In this document: in pieces, positions 11,735 through 33,004 of the stretch
How positions within the stretch are numbered: position 1 is the first letter of the stretch
Layout of the letters: each line of letters begins with the position of its first letter
Assembly (NCBI GenBank): GCA_026392035.1
Contig: JAPLCX010000028.1
Location: forward strand, 1-36,960
Length of the DNA: 36,960 bases
From: Candidatus Auribacterota bacterium
GTDB taxonomy: Bacteria; Auribacterota; Tritonobacteria; UBA1439
Direction: 5' to 3'
Position numbers and translations under genes: made by a program
Notes under the pieces: model-generated
What the model was told of the DNA's origin: nothing
What the model saw: only the letters and a program-made list of their open reading frames with translations
Database searches by the model: none

Positions 11735-11784
11735 ATGTAGTTGAAAGGGGCGAGGTGCCCCTACGGCGGGCGGAGGCCGATATT

Positions 11785-14700
11785 ATGAAAAAAGCAGGAG
11801 AAGAAGTTGAGGCATCTACTGTTCTCACTGAAGTAAGATATGCAACGGCGCTTGTTGCGGTTGTTGTACTCTTGTGGAGCATAATCGGCTACGGGCAGGT
11901 TGAGCCATGGCCGATGTTGCATTATGATGCCCCCCACGGAGGGAAAAGCCCCGACAGTGGCCCCCGTATCCCAGCGCTGGCCTGGAGCTACAGCATAAGC
12001 GTTGCAGTTGATTCCTCAGCGGCAGTGAGCACCACCACGGTATATATCGGTTCCGCGGACAACAATCTCTACTCCTTCAGCTCGATTGGATCCTTCCTAT
12101 GGAGCTACACATCGGCTGGAGATACTACATCAGCCGCAATAGCCACTGATTTGGTGTATATCACTTCAAGTGATAACAACCTCTACGGCATTACTAACTT
12201 GACCGGCCAACTCTCCTGGAGTTATGCAGCCGGCGGAGATATTGTTACCTCGCCGGTGCTGAGCTCGGCAGGGACAATATATTTTGGAGCCCTCGATGAG
12301 CGAGCCTACAGCATCAACTCTGATGGGTCGTTCCTGTGGAGCTACCGTAGCTCGCCAATTTATACTAACCCCGCCTTAGGCCTCGACAGGTTGTACGTCG
12401 GGAACGACAGCAATTCGCTCTTATGGCTCGATGCTTCTACCGGAGCACTCTTGGGCTCGGCTGGCGCCGGCACGGCATCGCTGGCGTTGGGCGCAACGGA
12501 TAAGGTGTATTATGGTGCGGTAGATAATAATCTGTACAGCTTAAACTCCGATGGGACTACACGCTGGGTATTCCCGGTATCCGGGACCGCCTCGGTCTCC
12601 TCCATACCCGCCATAGGCACCGATAAGATATACGTGGGTTCCCAGGACAATAATCTCTACAGCGTGTTTGATTCGGATGGGCTCCTCTCGTGGAGTTATA
12701 CCGCTGGCGGAGAGATCACTTCCTCGCCGGCGCTGGACTCAAGCGAGAGGGTGTACGTGGGTTCTCAGGACAATATTATGTACGGCATCAACTCAGATGG
12801 GACGCTGCTGTGGAGTTATACGACGCCCAACGGTATCGTTTCATCCCCGGCGATCAGCCCGGATACGGTCTATGTAGGTTCAGGTGATAACCGCCTCTAC
12901 GTGATCGTCGAGGGACCAACAGAGACGCCGACGATCACACCGACGCCGACGATCACACCGACGCCCACGATCACAGACACCCCGACGATCACGCCCACTC
13001 CCACCGAAACGGAAACACCGACTCCCACGCCGCTTCCCGGGTACGTAGTTTCGGGAGCCAACTACGCTGACGCCAACGGGACGTACTGCAAGCAAGTTTT
13101 CAAATACAACGGATGCTACGTCTACCAGAAGGCGGGAACCGGACTCCAGATACGGTACGAGGGTGCGGGAGACGATTACTGGTACATGTACGACGGGGCA
13201 TGGGGTCTGTGGCTGTACAAGATAGCCGCCGACGAGGACTGCTTCACCGACCTCACGGGCACGTGGAGCGATGCAGGCGGTGGACTGCCCGTGCCTGTCG
13301 TGGTCATGGGATGCGAGGACACGCCGACGCCGACCCCCACAGAGACGCCGACCCCTTACGAATCACTTCACCCCTGGCCGATGTTCCATCATGACGTGCG
13401 CCGCACGGGGAAGAGCGATTTGGATGGCCCTTCGAGCCCGATTTTGAAGTGGAGCTATAAAACGGGCGATGATTTATTCTCATCGCCAGCAGTAAGTTCA
13501 ATCGGTAAGGTGTATACAGGTTCAGATGACAACAATCTCTACAGTTTTAAATCGGACGGTTCGCTGCTGTGGAGCTACACAACTGCGGATATAGTCCGTT
13601 CATCACCTGCGATAGGCATTGATACAGTTTGGGTTGGTTCTCAAGACAATCATTTATACTGCTTATTCCAAACTGGGTTACTCTCATGGAGCTATGAAAC
13701 AGGATCTTGGATACGTTCATCACCGGCTATTAGCAACATCGGGACGGTATACGTGGGATCTGTGGATGACCGTCTTTATAAAATCGATTCCAATGGTTCA
13801 TTACTGTGGAGCTATAAGGCTGGAATATACATAGGATACTCATCACCTGCGCTCAGTTTAGCTGATAAGGTGTATATCGGCAGTGAAGATAACCGTATTT
13901 ACTGCTTGACTAACCAAGATGCCTTACTGTTTTGGAGCTATGAAACGGGCGACGAAATAGCTTCTTCCCCGGCATTAAGCTCGACTGATACAGTATACGT
14001 GGGCTCTCATGACAATCGGCTTTATAGTATTGACTCACTTGGCGCCTTATTGTGGAGCTATGAGACCGGGAATTATTTCGATTTGGCATCATCACCATCA
14101 ATAAGTACTGATACGGTATGGATTGGGTCTACTGATAACCACATTTATTGCTTACGGCAGGATGGGAAATTATCATGGAGCTATGAAACCGGTGATAAAA
14201 TATGGACTTCACCAACTATAGGTGCGGCAGATACAGTATACATAGGCTCTTCCGATGGGAATATCTACAGCATCGACTCCAGCGGTTCATTGTTGTGGTC
14301 ATATATCATTGGATCGTGGATTGGTTCATCTGCTGCAATAGGTACCGACACTGTATATATTGGTTCTTACAGCAGTGCCTTGTACGTGATCACGCAACCC
14401 ACGCCGGTCCCCCCTCCGCCCGAACATCCCTGGCCGATGTTCAGGCACGACCCGCTGCGCACCGGGGTAAGCCCGCTTAACGGTCCGGTGGGGCCAGTAT
14501 TGTTGTGGAGCTATGTGATTAGCTTTACATCCGGTTTTGTCGATTCATCTCCGGCAGTAGGCTTAGACGGCCACATCTATATCGGATCGGACGACAACTC
14601 CATATTTAGCATCAGCGGCGATGGCGCGCTCATCTGGAGCTATGGAACGAGCGATGGTATAACATCTTCGCCTGCGATAGATGCCGAAAATGTCTACACG

Positions 14701-15894
14701 GGGTCTTTGGACCACACACTCTATGCCCTAGTCTCAACTGGTTCATTCGCATGGAGTTATGTAACCGGTGGACTCATTATCTCTTCGGCTGTGGTCAGCG
14801 GCGGGGACATTTATATCGGATCAGATGATAACGCGCTCTACAAGCTTCTCTCGACAGGATCTCTCGTGTGGACCTATAGGACGGGAAGCAATATCGTTTC
14901 CTCCCCTGCTATAGGGATGAGCGGAAATATATATGTGGGATCGTACGATGATAGACTGTACGCCTTTACGCCCGACGGTATATTATCCTGGAGTTATAGA
15001 ACGGCCGGCGTTATAGACAGTTCCCCCTGTGCTACTTCAACCGTCTATGTAGGAAGTAACGATAACGATGTTTATGCGTTTACCACGGACGGAGCTCTCG
15101 TGTGGAGTTATGCGACAGGTGGCGCAGTGTATTATTCCTCTCCCTCCGGCACGGATACGGTATCAATAGGCTCCCAAGATAACAGCCTTTACACGTTCAA
15201 TACAGACGGTTCTCTCTTCTGGAGTTATGCTCTCACGGGAGATGTCGAGGCCTCCCCCGCCATTTCGGCTCAAGATATAGTCTACATAGGCTCTGATGGC
15301 GGAGAAACCTATGGGCTGAGTCCAGATGGCGGCCTGTTGTGGAGCTACATTGGGACAGGTTCCGTCCATATGGGTCCCGTCATCGGCGCCTCTGGTGAAG
15401 TGTATGTAGGTTTCGGCGCATCTACTCATAACAGGCTGTGCCGGTTCCAGGATCCCACCCCGACTCCCACCCCGACGCCCACGGCAACACCGTTCATGCC
15501 CACCCCGACACCCACCTGCCTGCAAGGCTTGAGGGTGTGGCTGAACAAGAGCAGCTTCAATCCCGGAGACACCTTCGAAGCCTGGGTCAGCTTCAGCAAT
15601 ACCTATATGGACTGGGATGGGTACCTCGTGTTTGTAAGGAGCGGCAGGACCTGGTCGGATGTGAGGGGGAGGCTGAAACGCGGAGTGCACCCGGTGGTCA
15701 CCAACAGGCTGGAGATTCATAATTGCTGGGGGCCGAACAAGGCATTCTCCATCCGAGTGCCGCGCAATGCCGCGGGCCAGTACACGCTCTTCGTGGCGAC
15801 ACTCCCCTGGAAGACCAAACCGACGTACGCGAACGCCAAGTACGGACCGAACAGCCAATTGGCGAGCGCCACGTTTAGAATCCTAATTGAGTGA
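11785..15894 (+). CDS. Giant secreted protein: three 8-bladed PQQ-like propellers, PT linkers, shared C-terminal domain
   Basis: A 1369-residue predicted secreted protein. The ATG at 11785 has GGAGG 8 nt upstream. A hydrophobic segment at about residues 20-37 acts as signal or anchor. Three propeller blocks (about 41-375, 530-870 and 880-1222) each open with a PWPM(F/L)xxD motif and hold eight repeats of about 40 residues, ending in LLWSY with VYVGSxDNxLYS strands. This is the PQQ/quinoprotein-like repeat class, probably a binding scaffold rather than an enzyme. Thr/Pro linkers separate the blocks. A 95-residue domain with four Cys lies at about 418-512. The C-terminal domain (1247-1369) is homologous to that of the next gene, which starts 9 nt downstream. 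Ligand unknown. Confidence 0.85.
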   Translation: MKKAGEEVEASTVLTEVRYATALVAVVVLLWSIIGYGQVEPWPMLHYDAPHGGKSPDSGPRIPALAWSYSISVAVDSSAAVSTTTVYIGSADNNLYSFSSIGSFLWSYTSAGDTTSAAIATDLVYITSSDNNLYGITNLTGQLSWSYAAGGDIVTSPVLSSAGTIYFGALDERAYSINSDGSFLWSYRSSPIYTNPALGLDRLYVGNDSNSLLWLDASTGALLGSAGAGTASLALGATDKVYYGAVDNNLYSLNSDGTTRWVFPVSGTASVSSIPAIGTDKIYVGSQDNNLYSVFDSDGLLSWSYTAGGEITSSPALDSSERVYVGSQDNIMYGINSDGTLLWSYTTPNGIVSSPAISPDTVYVGSGDNRLYVIVEGPTETPTITPTPTITPTPTITDTPTITPTPTETETPTPTPLPGYVVSGANYADANGTYCKQVFKYNGCYVYQKAGTGLQIRYEGAGDDYWYMYDGAWGLWLYKIAADEDCFTDLTGTWSDAGGGLPVPVVVMGCEDTPTPTPTETPTPYESLHPWPMFHHDVRRTGKSDLDGPSSPILKWSYKTGDDLFSSPAVSSIGKVYTGSDDNNLYSFKSDGSLLWSYTTADIVRSSPAIGIDTVWVGSQDNHLYCLFQTGLLSWSYETGSWIRSSPAISNIGTVYVGSVDDRLYKIDSNGSLLWSYKAGIYIGYSSPALSLADKVYIGSEDNRIYCLTNQDALLFWSYETGDEIASSPALSSTDTVYVGSHDNRLYSIDSLGALLWSYETGNYFDLASSPSISTDTVWIGSTDNHIYCLRQDGKLSWSYETGDKIWTSPTIGAADTVYIGSSDGNIYSIDSSGSLLWSYIIGSWIGSSAAIGTDTVYIGSYSSALYVITQPTPVPPPPEHPWPMFRHDPLRTGVSPLNGPVGPVLLWSYVISFTSGFVDSSPAVGLDGHIYIGSDDNSIFSISGDGALIWSYGTSDGITSSPAIDAENVYTGSLDHTLYALVSTGSFAWSYVTGGLIISSAVVSGGDIYIGSDDNALYKLLSTGSLVWTYRTGSNIVSSPAIGMSGNIYVGSYDDRLYAFTPDGILSWSYRTAGVIDSSPCATSTVYVGSNDNDVYAFTTDGALVWSYATGGAVYYSSPSGTDTVSIGSQDNSLYTFNTDGSLFWSYALTGDVEASPAISAQDIVYIGSDGGETYGLSPDGGLLWSYIGTGSVHMGPVIGASGEVYVGFGASTHNRLCRFQDPTPTPTPTPTATPFMPTPTPTCLQGLRVWLNKSSFNPGDTFEAWVSFSNTYMDWDGYLVFVRSGRTWSDVRGRLKRGVHPVVTNRLEIHNCWGPNKAFSIRVPRNAAGQYTLFVATLPWKTKPTYANAKYGPNSQLASATFRILIE
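12910..13038 (+). repeat. Thr-Pro linker repeat in the propeller gene
   Basis: Tandem units of ACGCCGACGATCACACCG and close variants encode a TPTITPTP-type linker between propeller 1 and the Cys-containing domain. Shorter PT tracts recur at 13321-13350, 15455-15515 and, in the protease gene, 18142-18175. Such linkers are typical of secreted multidomain proteins. Confidence 0.8.
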
Positions 15895-15903
15895 GGGGAA
15901 TAG

Positions 15904-18531
15904 ATGCGCAGGCGCAGAGGGGATGTCGTAATCCTATTAGCGGCATGTATCAGCCTGTGCGTTCTTCTTTCGGCAACCCCTGCGCGAGGGGCTGATCGCT
16001 CCCTCGTTTCTCAATTGCAGCGCGATGCCGGAGGGAAGGCGCGCATATCCTACCATTCCAAAACCGGTCTGGTCAGTTTCCTCGGGACAGATTTGACACA
16101 TACCATTCCGCAAAAAAGCAACCTCGCCCGTGGCGCCTCTTCCGAGACGGTCGCCCGGGCGTTCATTGACGACTGCGGTGAGCTGTTCGGCATCGCCAGT
16201 CAGGCTGATGAGCTTGACCTCATGCGTTCACAGTCAGCTTCCGGGGGGCGCTCCTTTGTCCGATTCCAGCAGGCGTATCGCGGCATCCCCGTGTTCGGCG
16301 GCGAGTTGATCGTCCAGCTCGACTCGAAGAGAAACATCCTCTCGGCGAACGGCGAGATAGCGCCGGGGATCACGGTGGATACCATTCCGGAGATAGGCGC
16401 CTGCGAGGCTGCTGAAAGGGCGACGCGCGCGGTTGCCGCATGGTACTCCCTTGACCCTGGTGAGCTCATCGCGAGCGATCCGGAGCTCTGGATATATAAC
16501 CCGGTACTGGTGGGGCGGAATCGCGACATGAACTCCCTCGTCTGGCGCATGGATGTCTCTCCCGCGCGTTTCGAGACAATAAAAGAACTGGTCCTCGTGG
16601 ATGCCCACCTCGGTGTCATCGCCCTGCACTTCAACCAGGTCAACAATGTTAAGAATCGGTCCATCTATGACAACAACAACAACCCTTCTGCGGGATTGCC
16701 GGGAACGGGTCCGGTGCGCGTCGAGGGGGGGCCAGCGTCAGGGATCACAGACGTGGATAACGCCTACGATTACGCTGGATACACCTACGACTTTTACAAA
16801 GACTACCATGATCGGGACAGCCTGGACAACGCCGGGATGCAACTCGTGAGCACCGTGAGATACTGCCCTTCCTCCCTATCCTGTCCTTATGCCAACGCCT
16901 TCTGGAATGGTCAGCAGATGACATACGGCCAGGGCTTCGCCTCGGCACTGGATGTTGTCGGCCATGAGATGACTCACGGCGTCACCGAGCATGAATCGCA
17001 GCTCTTTTACTATATGCAGTCAGGCGCCATCAACGAGTCGTTCTCTGACATCTGGGGGGAATTTATCGAGTTGACGTACAACCCGGGTCCCGCGACCGAC
17101 CGCTGGCTCCTCGGGGAGGATTCCCCCCTCGGTGCGATTCGGGACATGAAGAATCCGCCCCATTTCAACGATCCGGATAAGATGAGCAGCAGCAACTATT
17201 ACTGCGGGGAGAACGACGGGGGGGGAGTCCATACCAACAGCGGTGTCTCCAACAAAGTTGCCTATCTCATCACTGACGGCGATACCTTCAACGGCTACAC
17301 GGTGACAGGGCGCGGCGTCATTCCAACGGCACAGCTCTTCTATGAGGTCCAGACCAACCTCTTCACCTCAGCGAGCGACTACCAGAACCTCTATGATTCC
17401 CTACAACAGGCGGCAATCAATCTCGGCTGGAGCGCTCCCGATCAGCAGCAGGTCAAGAACGCCTGTGACGCGACAGAGATGAACCGGCAGCCGGATGGAT
17501 GCCCCGCGCCCGAGGCGCCCATCTGTGACTCAGGCTACCTCAGTGACCTGTTCTTTGACAATATGGAGAATACCGCGAGCAAGAACTGGGCTTCAGCGAC
17601 GGTTGTGGGAACCAATGAATGGTACTATCCACAGAACTCGAACCCCTACGGGTTTGACGCCACCTACGCCACCTCAGGCCGCTACAATATCTGGGGCAAT
17701 GATCATTACGGTACGGCTGATTACTATATCGGCATGACCAGGGACGTGGATCTACCGGCGGGGAATTCCTACCTGCACTTCAACCACGCCTACGCCTTCG
17801 ATGACTATACGAGCGGCACGACCAAGCTCTTCGACGGTGGAGTGGTCGAGTACAGCACGGACGGCGGCAACTCATGGCAGGACGCCGGCTCACTCTTCAC
17901 CGACAACGGATACAGTGGTATCATCGGAAACTCATGGAACAATCCACTCGGCGGCCGATCCGCCTTCGTGAGCGAGAGCAACGGCTACATCTCCAGCCGC
18001 GCCGATCTGAGCTTGCTGGCGGGCCAGAAGGTGCGCGTGCGCTTCCGCATCGGCACGAGCGATACCAGCGACCCCCAGCGCTCCAGCTCTGCCTACGGCT
18101 GGTTCATTGACGACGTCCGCATCTACGTGTGCAGTGCGACTCCCCCGGCTCCCACGCCGACCCCTCCCCCACCGGGCCTGCACGTGATATTGAACAAGGA
18201 GAGTTTCAATGGAGGAGACCTGCTTACCATTGATGTCTCCTTCAGTGAAGCAGCCATGGACTGGGACGGCTATCTGGTCTTCACGGGTGCGGCGGGGGTG
18301 TATTCGGCTACGGGAAGCAGGTTGCAGCGGGGGGTGCATCCGATTGTCAGGAATGCCATGGAAATGCATCGGCCTTTTGTGGGAAAAGTACTATCCATGC
18401 GCGTCCCGCACATGCCGGGCTCCTATGCCCTCCATTGCGCGATACTCCCCGCCGGCATAGCGCCGACACTGGCAAATGCGAGGGCGAGCTACAGTCAGTT
18501 GGCCGAGGTACCTTTCAGCATCTTACCTTAG
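15904..18531 (+). CDS. Secreted M4 (thermolysin-like) metalloprotease with beta-sandwich and shared C-terminal domain
   Basis: An 875-residue zinc endopeptidase. A signal peptide (1-29, ending ARGA) is followed by an FTP/PepSY-like propeptide to about 235. The catalytic domain has HEMTH at 354-358, the third zinc ligand E378 in NESFSDIWG, and the catalytic His443 in HTNSGVSNK; these spacings (24 and 89) equal those of thermolysin. After about residue 540 comes a beta-sandwich like those C-terminal to immune-inhibitor-A proteases, then a Pro/Thr linker, then the about 115-residue domain also found in the upstream propeller protein. GAGGGGA precedes the ATG, and the start is 9 nt after the upstream stop, so both proteins are probably made together. 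Likely an active exoenzyme. Confidence 0.94.
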   Translation: MRRRRGDVVILLAACISLCVLLSATPARGADRSLVSQLQRDAGGKARISYHSKTGLVSFLGTDLTHTIPQKSNLARGASSETVARAFIDDCGELFGIASQADELDLMRSQSASGGRSFVRFQQAYRGIPVFGGELIVQLDSKRNILSANGEIAPGITVDTIPEIGACEAAERATRAVAAWYSLDPGELIASDPELWIYNPVLVGRNRDMNSLVWRMDVSPARFETIKELVLVDAHLGVIALHFNQVNNVKNRSIYDNNNNPSAGLPGTGPVRVEGGPASGITDVDNAYDYAGYTYDFYKDYHDRDSLDNAGMQLVSTVRYCPSSLSCPYANAFWNGQQMTYGQGFASALDVVGHEMTHGVTEHESQLFYYMQSGAINESFSDIWGEFIELTYNPGPATDRWLLGEDSPLGAIRDMKNPPHFNDPDKMSSSNYYCGENDGGGVHTNSGVSNKVAYLITDGDTFNGYTVTGRGVIPTAQLFYEVQTNLFTSASDYQNLYDSLQQAAINLGWSAPDQQQVKNACDATEMNRQPDGCPAPEAPICDSGYLSDLFFDNMENTASKNWASATVVGTNEWYYPQNSNPYGFDATYATSGRYNIWGNDHYGTADYYIGMTRDVDLPAGNSYLHFNHAYAFDDYTSGTTKLFDGGVVEYSTDGGNSWQDAGSLFTDNGYSGIIGNSWNNPLGGRSAFVSESNGYISSRADLSLLAGQKVRVRFRIGTSDTSDPQRSSSAYGWFIDDVRIYVCSATPPAPTPTPPPPGLHVILNKESFNGGDLLTIDVSFSEAAMDWDGYLVFTGAAGVYSATGSRLQRGVHPIVRNAMEMHRPFVGKVLSMRVPHMPGSYALHCAILPAGIAPTLANARASYSQLAEVPFSILP

Positions 18532-22342: not shown

Positions 22343-22372
22343 TTGACAATAATCCACGGCATTTGGCATAAT
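22343..22372 (+). promoter_or_regulatory. Near-consensus promoter with leaderless start and tandem TTGACA
   Basis: TTGACA (22343-22348), an 18-nt spacer and CATAAT (22367-22372) form a near-consensus promoter. Six nucleotides separate the -10 from the ATG at 22379, so the predicted +1 falls on or beside the start codon, giving a leaderless mRNA; no ribosome-binding site is present. A second TTGACA lies exactly 10 bp upstream (22333-22338), one helical turn away. It may be part of an operator for the encoded XRE protein. Confidence 0.65.
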
Positions 22373-22378
22373 ACCGAC

Positions 22379-23515
22379 ATGAATAAATCCCTTAATATCT
22401 CTGTTTTTAAAGACGCTCTCATCAGGGCCGGAATGAACCAATCGGACTTGGCGGATAAGCTGAACGTTTCCAGAGAGGCGGTATCAAAATGGGTTCAGGG
22501 TGGGGCATTCCCTCAGCCAGATAAACTGCTACGTATAGGGATGCTCCTGAAGTTGTCATTTGAGCAACTAGTTACAGTGGCATCGCCTACGCTTGTTCCA
22601 ATCGTCACATTCCGAAGAAAGGCCCGCACGAAGACAAGAGACGAACACCTCGACAGCGCTCGCGAAACCGGCGAATTACTCAAACAATTGGTGAAATACC
22701 TGCCCGGTCAGGACTTGACTCAGCCTCCCACACTCAAAAATCCGATAAACAGCTACGATTACATCCAACGGGTAGCTGCGGATGTGCGTAAAGAGATGGG
22801 CCTGATGGGGAAGGAACGTATTGATTTTAAGGACATTATCGCTAAGTTCGACCGGCTTCACGCCGTGATCATCCCGGTCTTGTGGGGAGCCAGAGAATAT
22901 CATGGTAATGCCCTGAATATTCACCTGCCCGACTCGAAGACGACTTGGATATTTCTAAACTTGGATAGCAATACTGTTGACTTCAAGTTCTGGATGGCTC
23001 ATGAACTGGGCCATTCATTCGCGCCCACGCTTTCCGGAGAAGCTGGCGAGGATTTCGCCGACAGTTTCGCACAAGCTCTGCTTTTCCCTGAATCACATGC
23101 TGACAAACTTCATAATGTTTTACAGAGGATTCCCGGCATCGGGGCCAGGATCGAACGTGTCCGATCCGAGGCCATAAAGCATGTGATTTCGCCTTACACG
23201 ATCCGCCTAGCATTGGAGGGATATGAACAAGCACGAGGCATCCCGAAAACTAAACTCGGTGACCTCTCGCCGTTCATGGGTTCGGTCGTGAACTTTGGGA
23301 AGAGATACCCTACTATTTCAAAGACTTTGTTCAGACGCCTTCCGCCAAAACCAGCCGACTATATCGACGTGGCCCGGTCTGTGTTCGAAAGCCAATTCTT
23401 TGACGCGCTATCCGAATTCTGCAAAAATGAGCAGGGGGCAGAACACTTCATTCACCGCGTGCTCGGGGTTTCCCTGGCAGACGCTAAAGCCCTGTCGGTG
23501 GAACTCCGGAAATGA
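22379..23515 (+). CDS. XRE-family regulator fused to ImmA/IrrE-type metallopeptidase
   Basis: A 378-residue two-domain protein. Residues about 7-60 form an XRE/Cro-CI helix-turn-helix (MNQSDLADKLNVSREAVSKW). After a linker, the ImmA/IrrE (COG2856) domain has the zinc motif HELGH at 208-212 and the family's GEDFADSFAQALLFPE with the third ligand. Such proteins cleave or control repressors, and many pair with small toxin-like genes in mobile DNA. The ATG at 22379 is chosen on homology and promoter geometry. Its stop overlaps the next gene's ATG (ATGA), indicating translational coupling to the PIN protein. Base composition is more AT-rich by eye than the flanking genes, consistent with acquisition. 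Confidence 0.9.
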   Translation: MNKSLNISVFKDALIRAGMNQSDLADKLNVSREAVSKWVQGGAFPQPDKLLRIGMLLKLSFEQLVTVASPTLVPIVTFRRKARTKTRDEHLDSARETGELLKQLVKYLPGQDLTQPPTLKNPINSYDYIQRVAADVRKEMGLMGKERIDFKDIIAKFDRLHAVIIPVLWGAREYHGNALNIHLPDSKTTWIFLNLDSNTVDFKFWMAHELGHSFAPTLSGEAGEDFADSFAQALLFPESHADKLHNVLQRIPGIGARIERVRSEAIKHVISPYTIRLALEGYEQARGIPKTKLGDLSPFMGSVVNFGKRYPTISKTLFRRLPPKPADYIDVARSVFESQFFDALSEFCKNEQGAEHFIHRVLGVSLADAKALSVELRK

Positions 23516-24156: not shown

Positions 24157-24299
24157 AAATGGAGGAAGGTTACTGTCGATCATTCCAGCAACTATATATA
24201 CTATACGTTAGGTGGGGCAAAAAAGGAGTCGACCATTGTCTCAATGGGAACAGATTATCCAACGCATCGCTGATCCCTAGCATAGACAAAATTGATGAT

Positions 24300-25169
24300 A
24301 TGACGACTACACTGCCTAGTAGCGAGGAAATATTGCAGGCTATACGAACGTCGGCGAAAGCTCTTGGCCGCCCCCCTTCCCGTCGTGAGTTTAAGAGCCA
24401 CTCAGGCATGACTGAGTATCAAGTACTCAAGCATTTTCCGAGTTGGCGTGAGGCAGTGCGTGCCGCTGGTCTCGAACCGAACAGCACCAACCAGCCGCTT
24501 GATCCTGCTGTCCTTTTGGAAGACTGGGGCGAATATGTGCGGAAGTATCGCAGAATACCGACAAGAAACCAGTATCGAAGTGAAGGCACATATAGTGCTG
24601 GCGTATTCGATAGGAAAATAGGCACATGGTCTAGCATTCCTTCCAAGTTCCGTGCTTTTGCCGAAGGGCGTCCCGAGTGGGCTGACGTTGTTGCGCTCTT
24701 ACCGATTGAGGTAGCCCGCCCTCGATCTGGCGCCGTGTTTTCAATGACCCCAAGTACCACAGTGACCTCGCCATCCATATCTTCACAACATAAAAGACAT
24801 GCAAAGCTAGACGCTCGCCCAACTTATGGCAATCCGATTGATTTTCGCGGTCTTCGACATGAACCTGTTAATGAGGACGGTGTCGTATTTCTCTTTGGAA
24901 TGGTTGCGCGAGAGCTTGGGTACCTAGTTGAGGCGGTACAAGCTGGTTTTCCAGATTGCGAGGCAAAGAGACAAGTTGACGCAGGGAAGTGGCAACGCGT
25001 CCGCATAGAATTTGAGTTCGAGAGTAAAGCGTTCCGAGATCACGGACATTCTCTAGAAGGATGTGATGTAATCGTGTGTTGGAAGCATAACTGGCCTGAT
25101 TGTCCCCCTCATCTCGAAGTTGTTGAATTGAGTAACGTTATTAAATATCTTTCTGCGTCTGATGATTGA
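24300..25169 (+). CDS. Putative nuclease: HNH-associated repeats plus restriction-endonuclease-like domain
   Basis: A 289-residue protein. Residues about 10-55 and 65-115 are two copies of the homing-endonuclease-associated repeat (AxxLGRxPSxREF...FPSWREAVRAAG, then VRKYRRIPTRNQY...FDRKIGTWS). A Ser/Thr-rich linker follows. The C-terminal domain has DCEAKR, VRIEFEFESKAFRDHGH and GCDVIVCWKHNWPDCP, resembling a PD-(D/E)XK-type fold seen in restriction-like proteins. The Asp, Glu and Lys could form a nuclease site, but this is not certain. The frame extends to an ATG at 24159 with an unconvincing N-terminus, so the ATG at 24300 is preferred; neither has a clear ribosome-binding site. Last gene of the AT-richer island. 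Confidence 0.7.
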   Translation: MTTTLPSSEEILQAIRTSAKALGRPPSRREFKSHSGMTEYQVLKHFPSWREAVRAAGLEPNSTNQPLDPAVLLEDWGEYVRKYRRIPTRNQYRSEGTYSAGVFDRKIGTWSSIPSKFRAFAEGRPEWADVVALLPIEVARPRSGAVFSMTPSTTVTSPSISSQHKRHAKLDARPTYGNPIDFRGLRHEPVNEDGVVFLFGMVARELGYLVEAVQAGFPDCEAKRQVDAGKWQRVRIEFEFESKAFRDHGHSLEGCDVIVCWKHNWPDCPPHLEVVELSNVIKYLSASDD

Positions 25170-31247: not shown

Positions 31248-31418
31248 CGCGGCAGGGAAAGTGGTATCGTGGTCTGAACCTCGAATAACCATGCTCATAC
31301 TCGCCCTACGTATTCCACCTTTGTTCCATTTCGTAGGTGTCCGTCGCTCGCCTAAAAATACCTCCCGTGACTGAGGCTGTACATAAAAAATAGTTGTCGC
31401 TCCACCCGCCATCATCCC

Positions 31419-31447
31419 TTGGTTTTTCAATCCGGGATGGCTATAAT
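31419..31447 (+). promoter_or_regulatory. Promoter of the sodium symporter unit
   Basis: TTGGTT (31419-31424), a 17-nt spacer and a perfect TATAAT (31442-31447). Predicted transcription start is near 31454, with GAGG about 9 nt upstream of the ATG at 31472. Confidence 0.6.
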
Positions 31448-31471
31448 AGGCTTCTCACGAGGCACCTTGAG

Positions 31472-33004
31472 ATGAGAGAGAAGTGGACGTCGAAGATAGG
31501 GATCATAATGGCCGTCGCCGGTTCGGCAATCGGCCTGGGCAACTTCCTGCGTTTCCCCTCGCAGGCCGCGCAGAACGGCGGTGGCGCGTTCATGATCCCG
31601 TATTTTATTTCCCTCCTCCTCCTCGGCTTACCACTGATGTGGATTGAGTGGGCGATCGGCAGGTACGGCGGTATTTTTGGGCACGGAAGCGCGCCCTTGA
31701 TTTTCAATCGCCTCTGGCAGCACCGCACGGCGAAATACTTCGGTGCGATAGGCATCTTCGGGCCGGTCGCGATCTTTATCTATTATATATATATCGAGAG
31801 CTGGCTCGTTGGCTACTGCGCTTTTTCGCTTACGGGCACCCTGCGCCACCATGCCACGAGGGAGGGAATGCTCGCTTTCCTCCAGCGCTACCAGGGGATA
31901 GGGTCGAGCCGCCTCTTTTTGTACTCGTATCTGTTTTTCCTTGTTACTTTCTTCGTCAACTTTGCCGTCATCTATCGGGGTCTGAAGGGCGGTATTGAGA
32001 CGCTGTGCAACATCGCTCTCCCCATCCTGTTCCTCTTTGCCATCGTCATCGTGGTGCGGGTGCTGACAGTCGGCGCCCCAAACCCGGCCCATCCCGACTG
32101 GAACATCTACAACGGCATGGGATTTCTATGGAACCCGGATTTCAGCGCGCTGCTCAACTCCAGGGTGTGGCTCGCCGCCGCGGGGCAGATTTTCTTCACC
32201 CTGAGCGTCGGCATCGGGGTCATCATCACCTATGCGAGCTACCTCTCGAAGGGGGACGACATCGTGCTTTCGGGACTCACGGCAAGCTCCCTCAACGAGT
32301 TCGCCGAGGTCATCCTCGGCGGCTCGATTGTCATCCCGCTCGCCTTCGCCTTTTTCGGGCACGCCGGGGCGCAGGAGGTCGCGAAGAGCGGGAGCTTCAA
32401 CATCGGGTTTGTCACGATGCCGCTCATCTTCTCGAACATGTCGCACGGAATGCTATTCGCCTTCCTCTGGTTCTTCCTGCTCTTTCTCGCGGGCCTCACC
32501 TCGAGCATTTCACTCCTGGAACCCGCGGTCGCTTTTCTGAAAGACGAGTTCTCCATATCGCGGAAGAAGGCGGTGGTGCTGATCGCCGCGGCGACATTAA
32601 TCCTCTGCCAGTTCCCGATCTTCTTCCTCGCAAGGGGAGTGATGGATGACATCGACTTCTGGGCGGGGTCGTTCTTCCTCGTGGTATTCGGCATGGTAGA
32701 ATGCGTGCTTTTCGTGTGGGTTTTTGGCATCCAGAGGGCCTGGGATGAGATACACCACGGGGCGGAGCTCTACGTGCCACGTTTCTACAAGTTCGTTATC
32801 AAGTACGTGACTCCGTCATTCCTGATCCTCATCCTCGCGTTCTGGTTCTTCCAGCAGGCGGTGCCGACCTTCCTCCTGAGGGGCGTGCCGCGAGAGAATG
32901 TTCCCTATATCATCGCGACGAGGGTGGGGCTGTTTGGCATGTTTGCGGCTATCATGGTGCTGGTACGGAAGGCATACCGCGTAAAATTTGGAGAGTCGAA
33001 ATGA
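31472..33004 (+). CDS. LeuT-type sodium:neurotransmitter symporter family (NSS) amino-acid transporter
   Basis: A 510-residue, roughly 12-span Na+-coupled amino-acid symporter in the inner membrane. TM1 (GSAIGLGNFLRFPSQAAQNGGGAF) aligns closely with Aquifex LeuT. Na+-site residues are kept: A19 and N24 (LeuT A22, N27), the Thr of FFTLSVG and TSS of GLTSSIS in TM8. The substrate tyrosine in IYYIYIESW is present. Differences from LeuT (as recalled) include Ser for N21 and Ile for F259, so the substrate may differ from leucine/alanine. The ATG at 31472 is supported by promoter, ribosome-binding site and homology. Its stop overlaps the ATG of a 35-residue membrane protein. Confidence 0.94.
   Translation: MREKWTSKIGIIMAVAGSAIGLGNFLRFPSQAAQNGGGAFMIPYFISLLLLGLPLMWIEWAIGRYGGIFGHGSAPLIFNRLWQHRTAKYFGAIGIFGPVAIFIYYIYIESWLVGYCAFSLTGTLRHHATREGMLAFLQRYQGIGSSRLFLYSYLFFLVTFFVNFAVIYRGLKGGIETLCNIALPILFLFAIVIVVRVLTVGAPNPAHPDWNIYNGMGFLWNPDFSALLNSRVWLAAAGQIFFTLSVGIGVIITYASYLSKGDDIVLSGLTASSLNEFAEVILGGSIVIPLAFAFFGHAGAQEVAKSGSFNIGFVTMPLIFSNMSHGMLFAFLWFFLLFLAGLTSSISLLEPAVAFLKDEFSISRKKAVVLIAAATLILCQFPIFFLARGVMDDIDFWAGSFFLVVFGMVECVLFVWVFGIQRAWDEIHHGAELYVPRFYKFVIKYVTPSFLILILAFWFFQQAVPTFLLRGVPRENVPYIIATRVGLFGMFAAIMVLVRKAYRVKFGESK

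Follow-up and report, generated by a model that had tools for sequence, protein, structure and literature searches.

A C-terminal beta-sandwich domain on numerous exported proteins of an Auribacterota lineage looks like an address tag or cell-surface anchor

The window analyzed here is the whole contig C28, 36,960 nucleotides long, of a Candidatus Auribacterota genome (G000; 2.8 Mb, 122 contigs, 96% complete). It contains two co-oriented genes with a gap of 9 bp between them, for a propeller protein and a thermolysin-like protease, which probably share one transcript and stand under one subtype of the same C-terminal tag (Table 1). The product of gene 1 is 1379 aa long from its GTG and 1369 aa from the alternative ATG at 11785, the latter being the numbering of an earlier sequence-only reading of this DNA. 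The whole gene 2 protein matches NF038112 at 1e-33, which is under the cut-off of that model, and its intermediate domain resembles a region of myxosortase/rhombosortase-dependent M36 proteases. Further along the window, a forward-strand ORF with a homing-endonuclease-associated repeat (24159-25169; PF18780 HNH_repeat, 2e-17) lies near an HTH/M78-like regulator (22343-23515), a region that is a possible mobile element, and a forward-strand gene of the sodium:neurotransmitter symporter family (31394-33004; PF00209) is surrounded by the housekeeping genes pdxJ, YjeF, phosphoglucomutase and ftsH.

Table 1. Coordinates of the two window genes and their parts, and of domain carriers beside pilQ-type secretin genes
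Feature	Position	Strand	Basis
Gene 1, exported PQQ/BamB-like beta-propeller protein	11755..15894	+	ORF; PF13570 1e-141, PF13360 3e-79
Gene 1 probable signal peptide, MKKAGEE...ALVAVVVLLWSIIGYGQ before VEPW	11785..11898	+	read from sequence
Gene 1 PQQ/BamB-like propeller blades with Pro/Thr linkers between	11977..15192	+	PF13570 stretches
Gene 1 Pro/Thr linker DPTPTPTPTPTATPFMPTPTPTCLQ	15451..15525	+	read from sequence
Type A C-terminal domain copy 1, 122 aa, MDWDGY subtype	15526..15891	+	profile A2 6e-37
Gene 2, exported M4 (thermolysin-type) metallopeptidase, 875 aa	15904..18531	+	PF02868 3e-35, PF01447 3e-24, FTP 6e-10
Gene 2 probable signal peptide MRRRRGDVVILLAACISLCVLLSATPARGA	15904..15993	+	read from sequence
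Gene 2 M4 catalytic domains, residues 283-524	16750..17475	+	Pfam matches
Gene 2 intermediate beta domain	17608..18141	+	NF038112, best stretch residues 569-746
Gene 2 Pro-rich linker SATPPAPTPTPPPP	18133..18174	+	read from sequence
Type A C-terminal domain copy 2, 118 aa, MDWDGY subtype	18175..18528	+	profile A2 9e-36; AF2 pLDDT 94
Beta-helix/TIG carrier by pilQ-type secretin, G000 (C84)	L186:13985-17212
Beta-helix/TIG carrier by pilQ-type secretin, G002	L189:7699-16455
Beta-helix/TIG carrier by pilQ-type secretin, G001	L193:5535-8279
Beta-helix/TIG carrier by pilQ-type secretin, G003	L191/L159

The C-termini of the two proteins align over their full length, with 59/120 residues identical (50%, 105 bits, E 2e-35). 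The sequence-only reading was right that their last ~120 residues align throughout, that a Pro/Thr linker precedes them in both neighbouring genes, and that they share the motifs GL(R/H)V.LNK.SFN.GD, MDWDGYLVF, RL.RGVHP.V.N, RVP and ANA...SQLA...F.IL. Identity of the pair at codon positions 1, 2 and 3 is 58%, 66% and 38%, respectively, and the low value at the third position compared with the other two indicates an old duplication under purifying selection rather than a recent copy or an error of assembly. Copy 1 matches the profile of 52 family members at 99.7% in a profile-profile comparison, and we refer to this family as the type A domain.

It had been stated that the domain belongs to no named family, and this is borne out by the database searches: no Pfam model matches either window copy, neither Pfam nor NCBIfam contains a family for the alignments of 15 and 52 type A members, and the PDB sequence search gave no significant match. 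The matches obtained were at chance level, i.e., a chlorinating enzyme in NCBIfam for the window copies (0.004), and RbmA (0.13), Nis1 (0.006) and the like for single copies and the 15- and 52-member alignments. The literature search found no paper on the type A domain, and secretion, sorting and C-terminal domains go unmentioned in the one Auribacterota paper searched. In agreement with the proposed beta-rich module, AF2 predicts for the M4 copy with ten relatives an all-beta sandwich of nine strands (pLDDT 94, pTM 0.84), and for a canonical copy of a relative a nearly identical order of strands (pLDDT 96, pTM 0.87). Foldseek searches against PDB and viral models returned nothing at E<=0.001, the best being generic Ig-like folds: the arrestin N-lobe, the porphyran-binding CBM 8wae (E 2e-3 at TM 0.5), the Wzt carbohydrate-binding domain 8dky, alpha-2-macroglobulin and CARDB. 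Most of the positions with strong conservation over all paralogues look structural (G14, P39, G41, P81 and G86), and conservation throughout the family is also seen at D31 (79%) and Y/W33 (94%).

This gene pair is no special case, since the window's own genome holds ~70 copies of the domain: a plain protein search already returns further copies, a profile of 15 copies marks 77 places at E<=0.1, and the 52-member profile marks 73 at E<=0.001. Scanning contigs with the two-sequence alignment gave no match. An FDAW-type alignment gave five loci, of which four belong to the family, one of these four being labelled Candidatus Auribacterota; the fifth, a Mycobacterium match (E 6e-4), was not confirmed by the family HMM. 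Iterating the HMM to convergence on the DNA around matches, the retrieved stretches from which all carrier counts derive, yielded 169 copies in 166 ORFs of six genomes. The domain ends at most 30 residues from the stop in 160 of the 165 ORFs with an intact end (97%), the distance being <=5 residues in 122, 6-15 in 32 and 16-30 in 6. It is internal or near the N-terminus in the other 5/165, only three proteins among the 166 ORFs have two copies, and two proteins possess a further copy immediately behind their signal peptide, so the domain is not strictly position-dependent. Among the carriers with a ComEC-like metallo-hydrolase or an S15 peptidase, L106, L113 and L100 bear a copy directly behind the signal peptide, and L106 and L113 have a second one at the C-terminus.

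That the domain follows Pro/Thr linkers and ends exported proteins holds well beyond the window. At least 40% Pro+Thr directly precedes the domain in 83/156 carriers against a background of 10/573. By a simple hydrophobicity rule, 125/149 complete carriers have a signal-peptide-like N-terminus compared with 104/454 other ORFs of the same stretches, a crude comparison that is indicative only because the control set includes spurious ORFs. The Pfam assignments of 69 carriers in the own genome comprise propellers (25), subtilases, M4 peptidases, FG-GAP and beta-helix proteins (2 each) and single cases of M14, S15, C1, M28, choloylglycine hydrolase, Kelch, NUP and others; the 25 families met most often in these carriers include no glycoside hydrolase, lyase or carbohydrate esterase. 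The domain is present on each of the four M4 proteases found in the taxonomic family. The suggestion that it brings the two window proteins to the same target was therefore too narrow, with ~70 proteins capped in this genome and the MDWDGY subtype capping papain-like proteases, a GH16-like enzyme and others in sister genera.

The window copies belong to a clade of nine members (support 0.989) that is present in 5/6 genomes and caps an M4 protease, propellers, propellers with beta-helix segments, PEGA-repeat proteins, two papain-like proteases and one GH16-like enzyme (G002). Outside the window these cargo names are our reading of the sequences. The motif list noted earlier thus describes a real subtype, but one that extends across more than one kind of cargo. 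D(W/F)D(G/A)Y and a VP/IP strand are present in all members, most of which also keep PIV..A.E.H, AILP.G..PT..NAR and QL. Two members are neighbours in three genomes, namely in the window, at L146 in G003 and at L131 in G002. The two neighbouring carriers at L131 have an extra basic/hydrophobic tail of ~27-30 residues, ...RASLIRRIFGIFGSII, which the others lack.

All six genomes of the window's taxonomic family are positive, with 13-73 copies each, and none of the 38 other genomes of the phylum, including one of the same class, has the domain at E<=1e-3. Among the relatives with the domain is a Candidatus Auribacterota MAG from Lac Pavin, and the NCBI lineage is PVC group. Among 384 genomes searched, weak multi-copy matches (E 3e-10 to 8e-6) occurred in five belonging to three families outside the phylum (L243-L262 in G077, G091, G130, G222 and G356). 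These remote relatives are mostly C-terminal on exported-looking proteins, several of them beta-helix-like, and their match to the Auribacterota profile is at 99.3% (E 3e-20); no named family covers them, the best being DUF4785_2nd (PF20942) at 8e-4, which matches 2/12 members. Random pairs of domains in the own genome have a median identity of 21%, as against 68-92% in adjacent carriers on contigs C77, C96 and C115 and 52% in the window, and on C65 just one neighbour pair is alike. The similarity of copies in adjacent carriers is explained by spread through local duplication, but this leaves the persistently terminal position of the domain unaccounted for. G006, the relative from the same class that lacks the domain, has almost as many propeller stretches (80 vs 96), but its proteins end differently. 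Its large propeller proteins (L212, L214-L217) have terminal tandem repeats of the type DWTYWDAxARNPSPLARDLWxIPxGND.

Some propeller proteins of the own genome without type A end in another domain of ~145 residues, type B, with the motifs FxPGE, VYxAAxxNP, PRGxAGxWVFAxAF and SNxFxLH (e.g., L205, G000:C109:29354-29785; L209, G000:C33; L210, G000:C74). Like type A it stands at the end of exported proteins. A search with the type B profile gives 2-21 copies in every one of the same six genomes, as against none in four further genomes of the phylum, and 20 of the 22 copies collected end 0-3 residues before the stop. In G005, 128 further residues lie behind two copies. Type B is remotely related to type A, with a profile-profile match of 94% (E 1e-7) in a test that was weak when only three sequences were used.

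Known systems of C-terminal sorting offer the nearest comparisons. The T9SS sorting tail TIGR04183 is absent from all 8 genomes tested, with two control genomes positive, and is not among the NCBIfam families listed for the 69 carriers, so membership of type A in the type IX CTD family was rejected; the SprA/Sov and PorV models (PF14349, PF19572) matched none of the 8 genomes and no control genome either. The T9SS CTD of RgpB is a C-terminal Ig-like beta sandwich that serves as an export signal (PMC4804311). Type A shares with it the Ig-like sandwich, here predicted, the extreme C-terminal position, and many copies per genome on many unrelated exported proteins, but it has ~118 residues with nine predicted strands instead of seven, includes a few N-terminal copies and has no TIGR04183 match. 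Type IX CTDs are characterized by cleavage by PorU and anchoring to A-LPS. We regard the T9SS CTD as the closest functional analogue, which on our best reading would be analogous to type A and not homologous to it in sequence. The PEP-CTERM/exosortase, LPXTG/sortase, rhombosortase and myxosortase tags likewise occur once at the C-terminus of diverse exported proteins. Tags of the PEP-CTERM/LPXTG type consist of a short motif, a transmembrane helix and a basic tail, whereas in type A carriers the chain closes with the final strand of the folded domain, with 122/165 ORFs ending at most 5 residues past it, and such a tag was thus dismissed. Generic Ig-like and CBM folds (CBM 8wae, Wzt-CBD 8dky, CARDB 2kl6, DUF11/PF01345, DUF4785_2nd/PF20942) share the beta-sandwich topology at TM ~0.4-0.6, with weak HMM matches for a few remote relatives and none in Pfam for the Auribacterota copies, but differ from type A in position and use.

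No dedicated export or sortase partner and no lineage-specific translocon was found, and secretins are present in 8/8 genomes tested, the domain-free relatives equally. In the four genomes examined, a gene for a beta-helix/TIG protein with a C-terminal type A domain (915-2919 aa in G000-G002) directly follows a pilQ-type secretin gene, and a gene for an LpxL-like acyltransferase comes next in G000, G001 and G002, all three names being assigned from the sequences. This neighbourhood is a lead to a linked export route, not proof of one.

To a domain whose homology, confidently predicted fold, single copy at the extreme C-terminus, diverse cargo and lineage expansion are established by these data, we ascribe, with a probability of about one half, the role of an Ig-like localization module. 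The carriers would cross the inner membrane by Sec, as their signal-peptide-like N-termini suggest, and then fold, and their exit from the periplasm would probably be by way of the type II or pilus-type secretin of these genomes. The type A domain, often spaced from its cargo by a Pro/Thr linker, would then bind a receptor common to all, in the outer membrane or among the surface glycans, and so direct the carriers to the outer surface or retain them there. The surface-retention or sorting module of the sequence-only reading fits the genome-wide pattern (C-terminal in 160/165, on diverse exported cargo), a fit that falls short of proof. The median paralogue identity of 21% speaks against a localization role in that it would equally suit diversified ligand binding. 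On a more tentative footing, types A and B could form a two-type tag on ~3% of genes that serves an undescribed, T9SS-independent pathway of outer-membrane export or surface anchoring.

The main rival, possible though we doubt it, is a carbohydrate-binding or adhesion module of which each copy binds an external polymer, its divergence to a median of 21% reflecting different ligands. The porphyran-binding and O-antigen-binding domains (8wae, 8dky) among the best folds, the GH16-like carrier of G002, as read from its sequence, and the N-terminal copies all suit such a module, but no Foldseek match reaches E 1e-3, Pfam is silent, and propellers and peptidases dominate the 69 own carriers, with no CAZyme in the top 25 families. 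CBMs are usually found in tandem and at both N- and C-termini, whereas type A closes the protein in 97% of cases and is rarely present more than once. Rather unlikely is an export signal of an undescribed outer-membrane route, i.e., a counterpart of the T9SS CTD that is either cleaved or kept. Its placement and genome-wide use are those of the T9SS CTD, also an Ig-like sandwich (PMC4804311), T9SS type A tails were not found, and the carrier after the pilQ-type secretin in four genomes would suit it; against this stand the N-terminal and internal copies, the lack of a lineage-specific translocon, secretins common to domain-free relatives, and the chance that one pilQ locus among ~70 carriers is coincidence. 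We consider it improbable that type A has a passive structural role, capping C-termini to protect or stabilize them, and has spread by duplication without a dedicated partner. The structural look of the most strongly conserved positions and the similar copies in neighbouring genes are what such a cap would give, but the MDWDGY subtype keeps many extra residues in five genomes and on unrelated cargo, which is beyond the need of a neutral cap, and D31 and Y/W33 are conserved across the whole family.

The type A domain looks like a lineage-wide address tag or cell-surface anchor that is absent from protein-family databases. It is present in many copies throughout one family of an uncultured PVC phylum, and neither Pfam nor NCBIfam has a name for it. 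Genome-wide C-terminal tags, such as the T9SS CTD and PEP-CTERM, have time and again opened the way to entire secretion or anchoring systems, and type A provides a concrete bait in the search for a receptor or translocon. The remote C-terminal relatives in other phyla suggest a broader kind of such domains. For the Auribacterota themselves, type A allows much of the surface proteome to be predicted from sequence.
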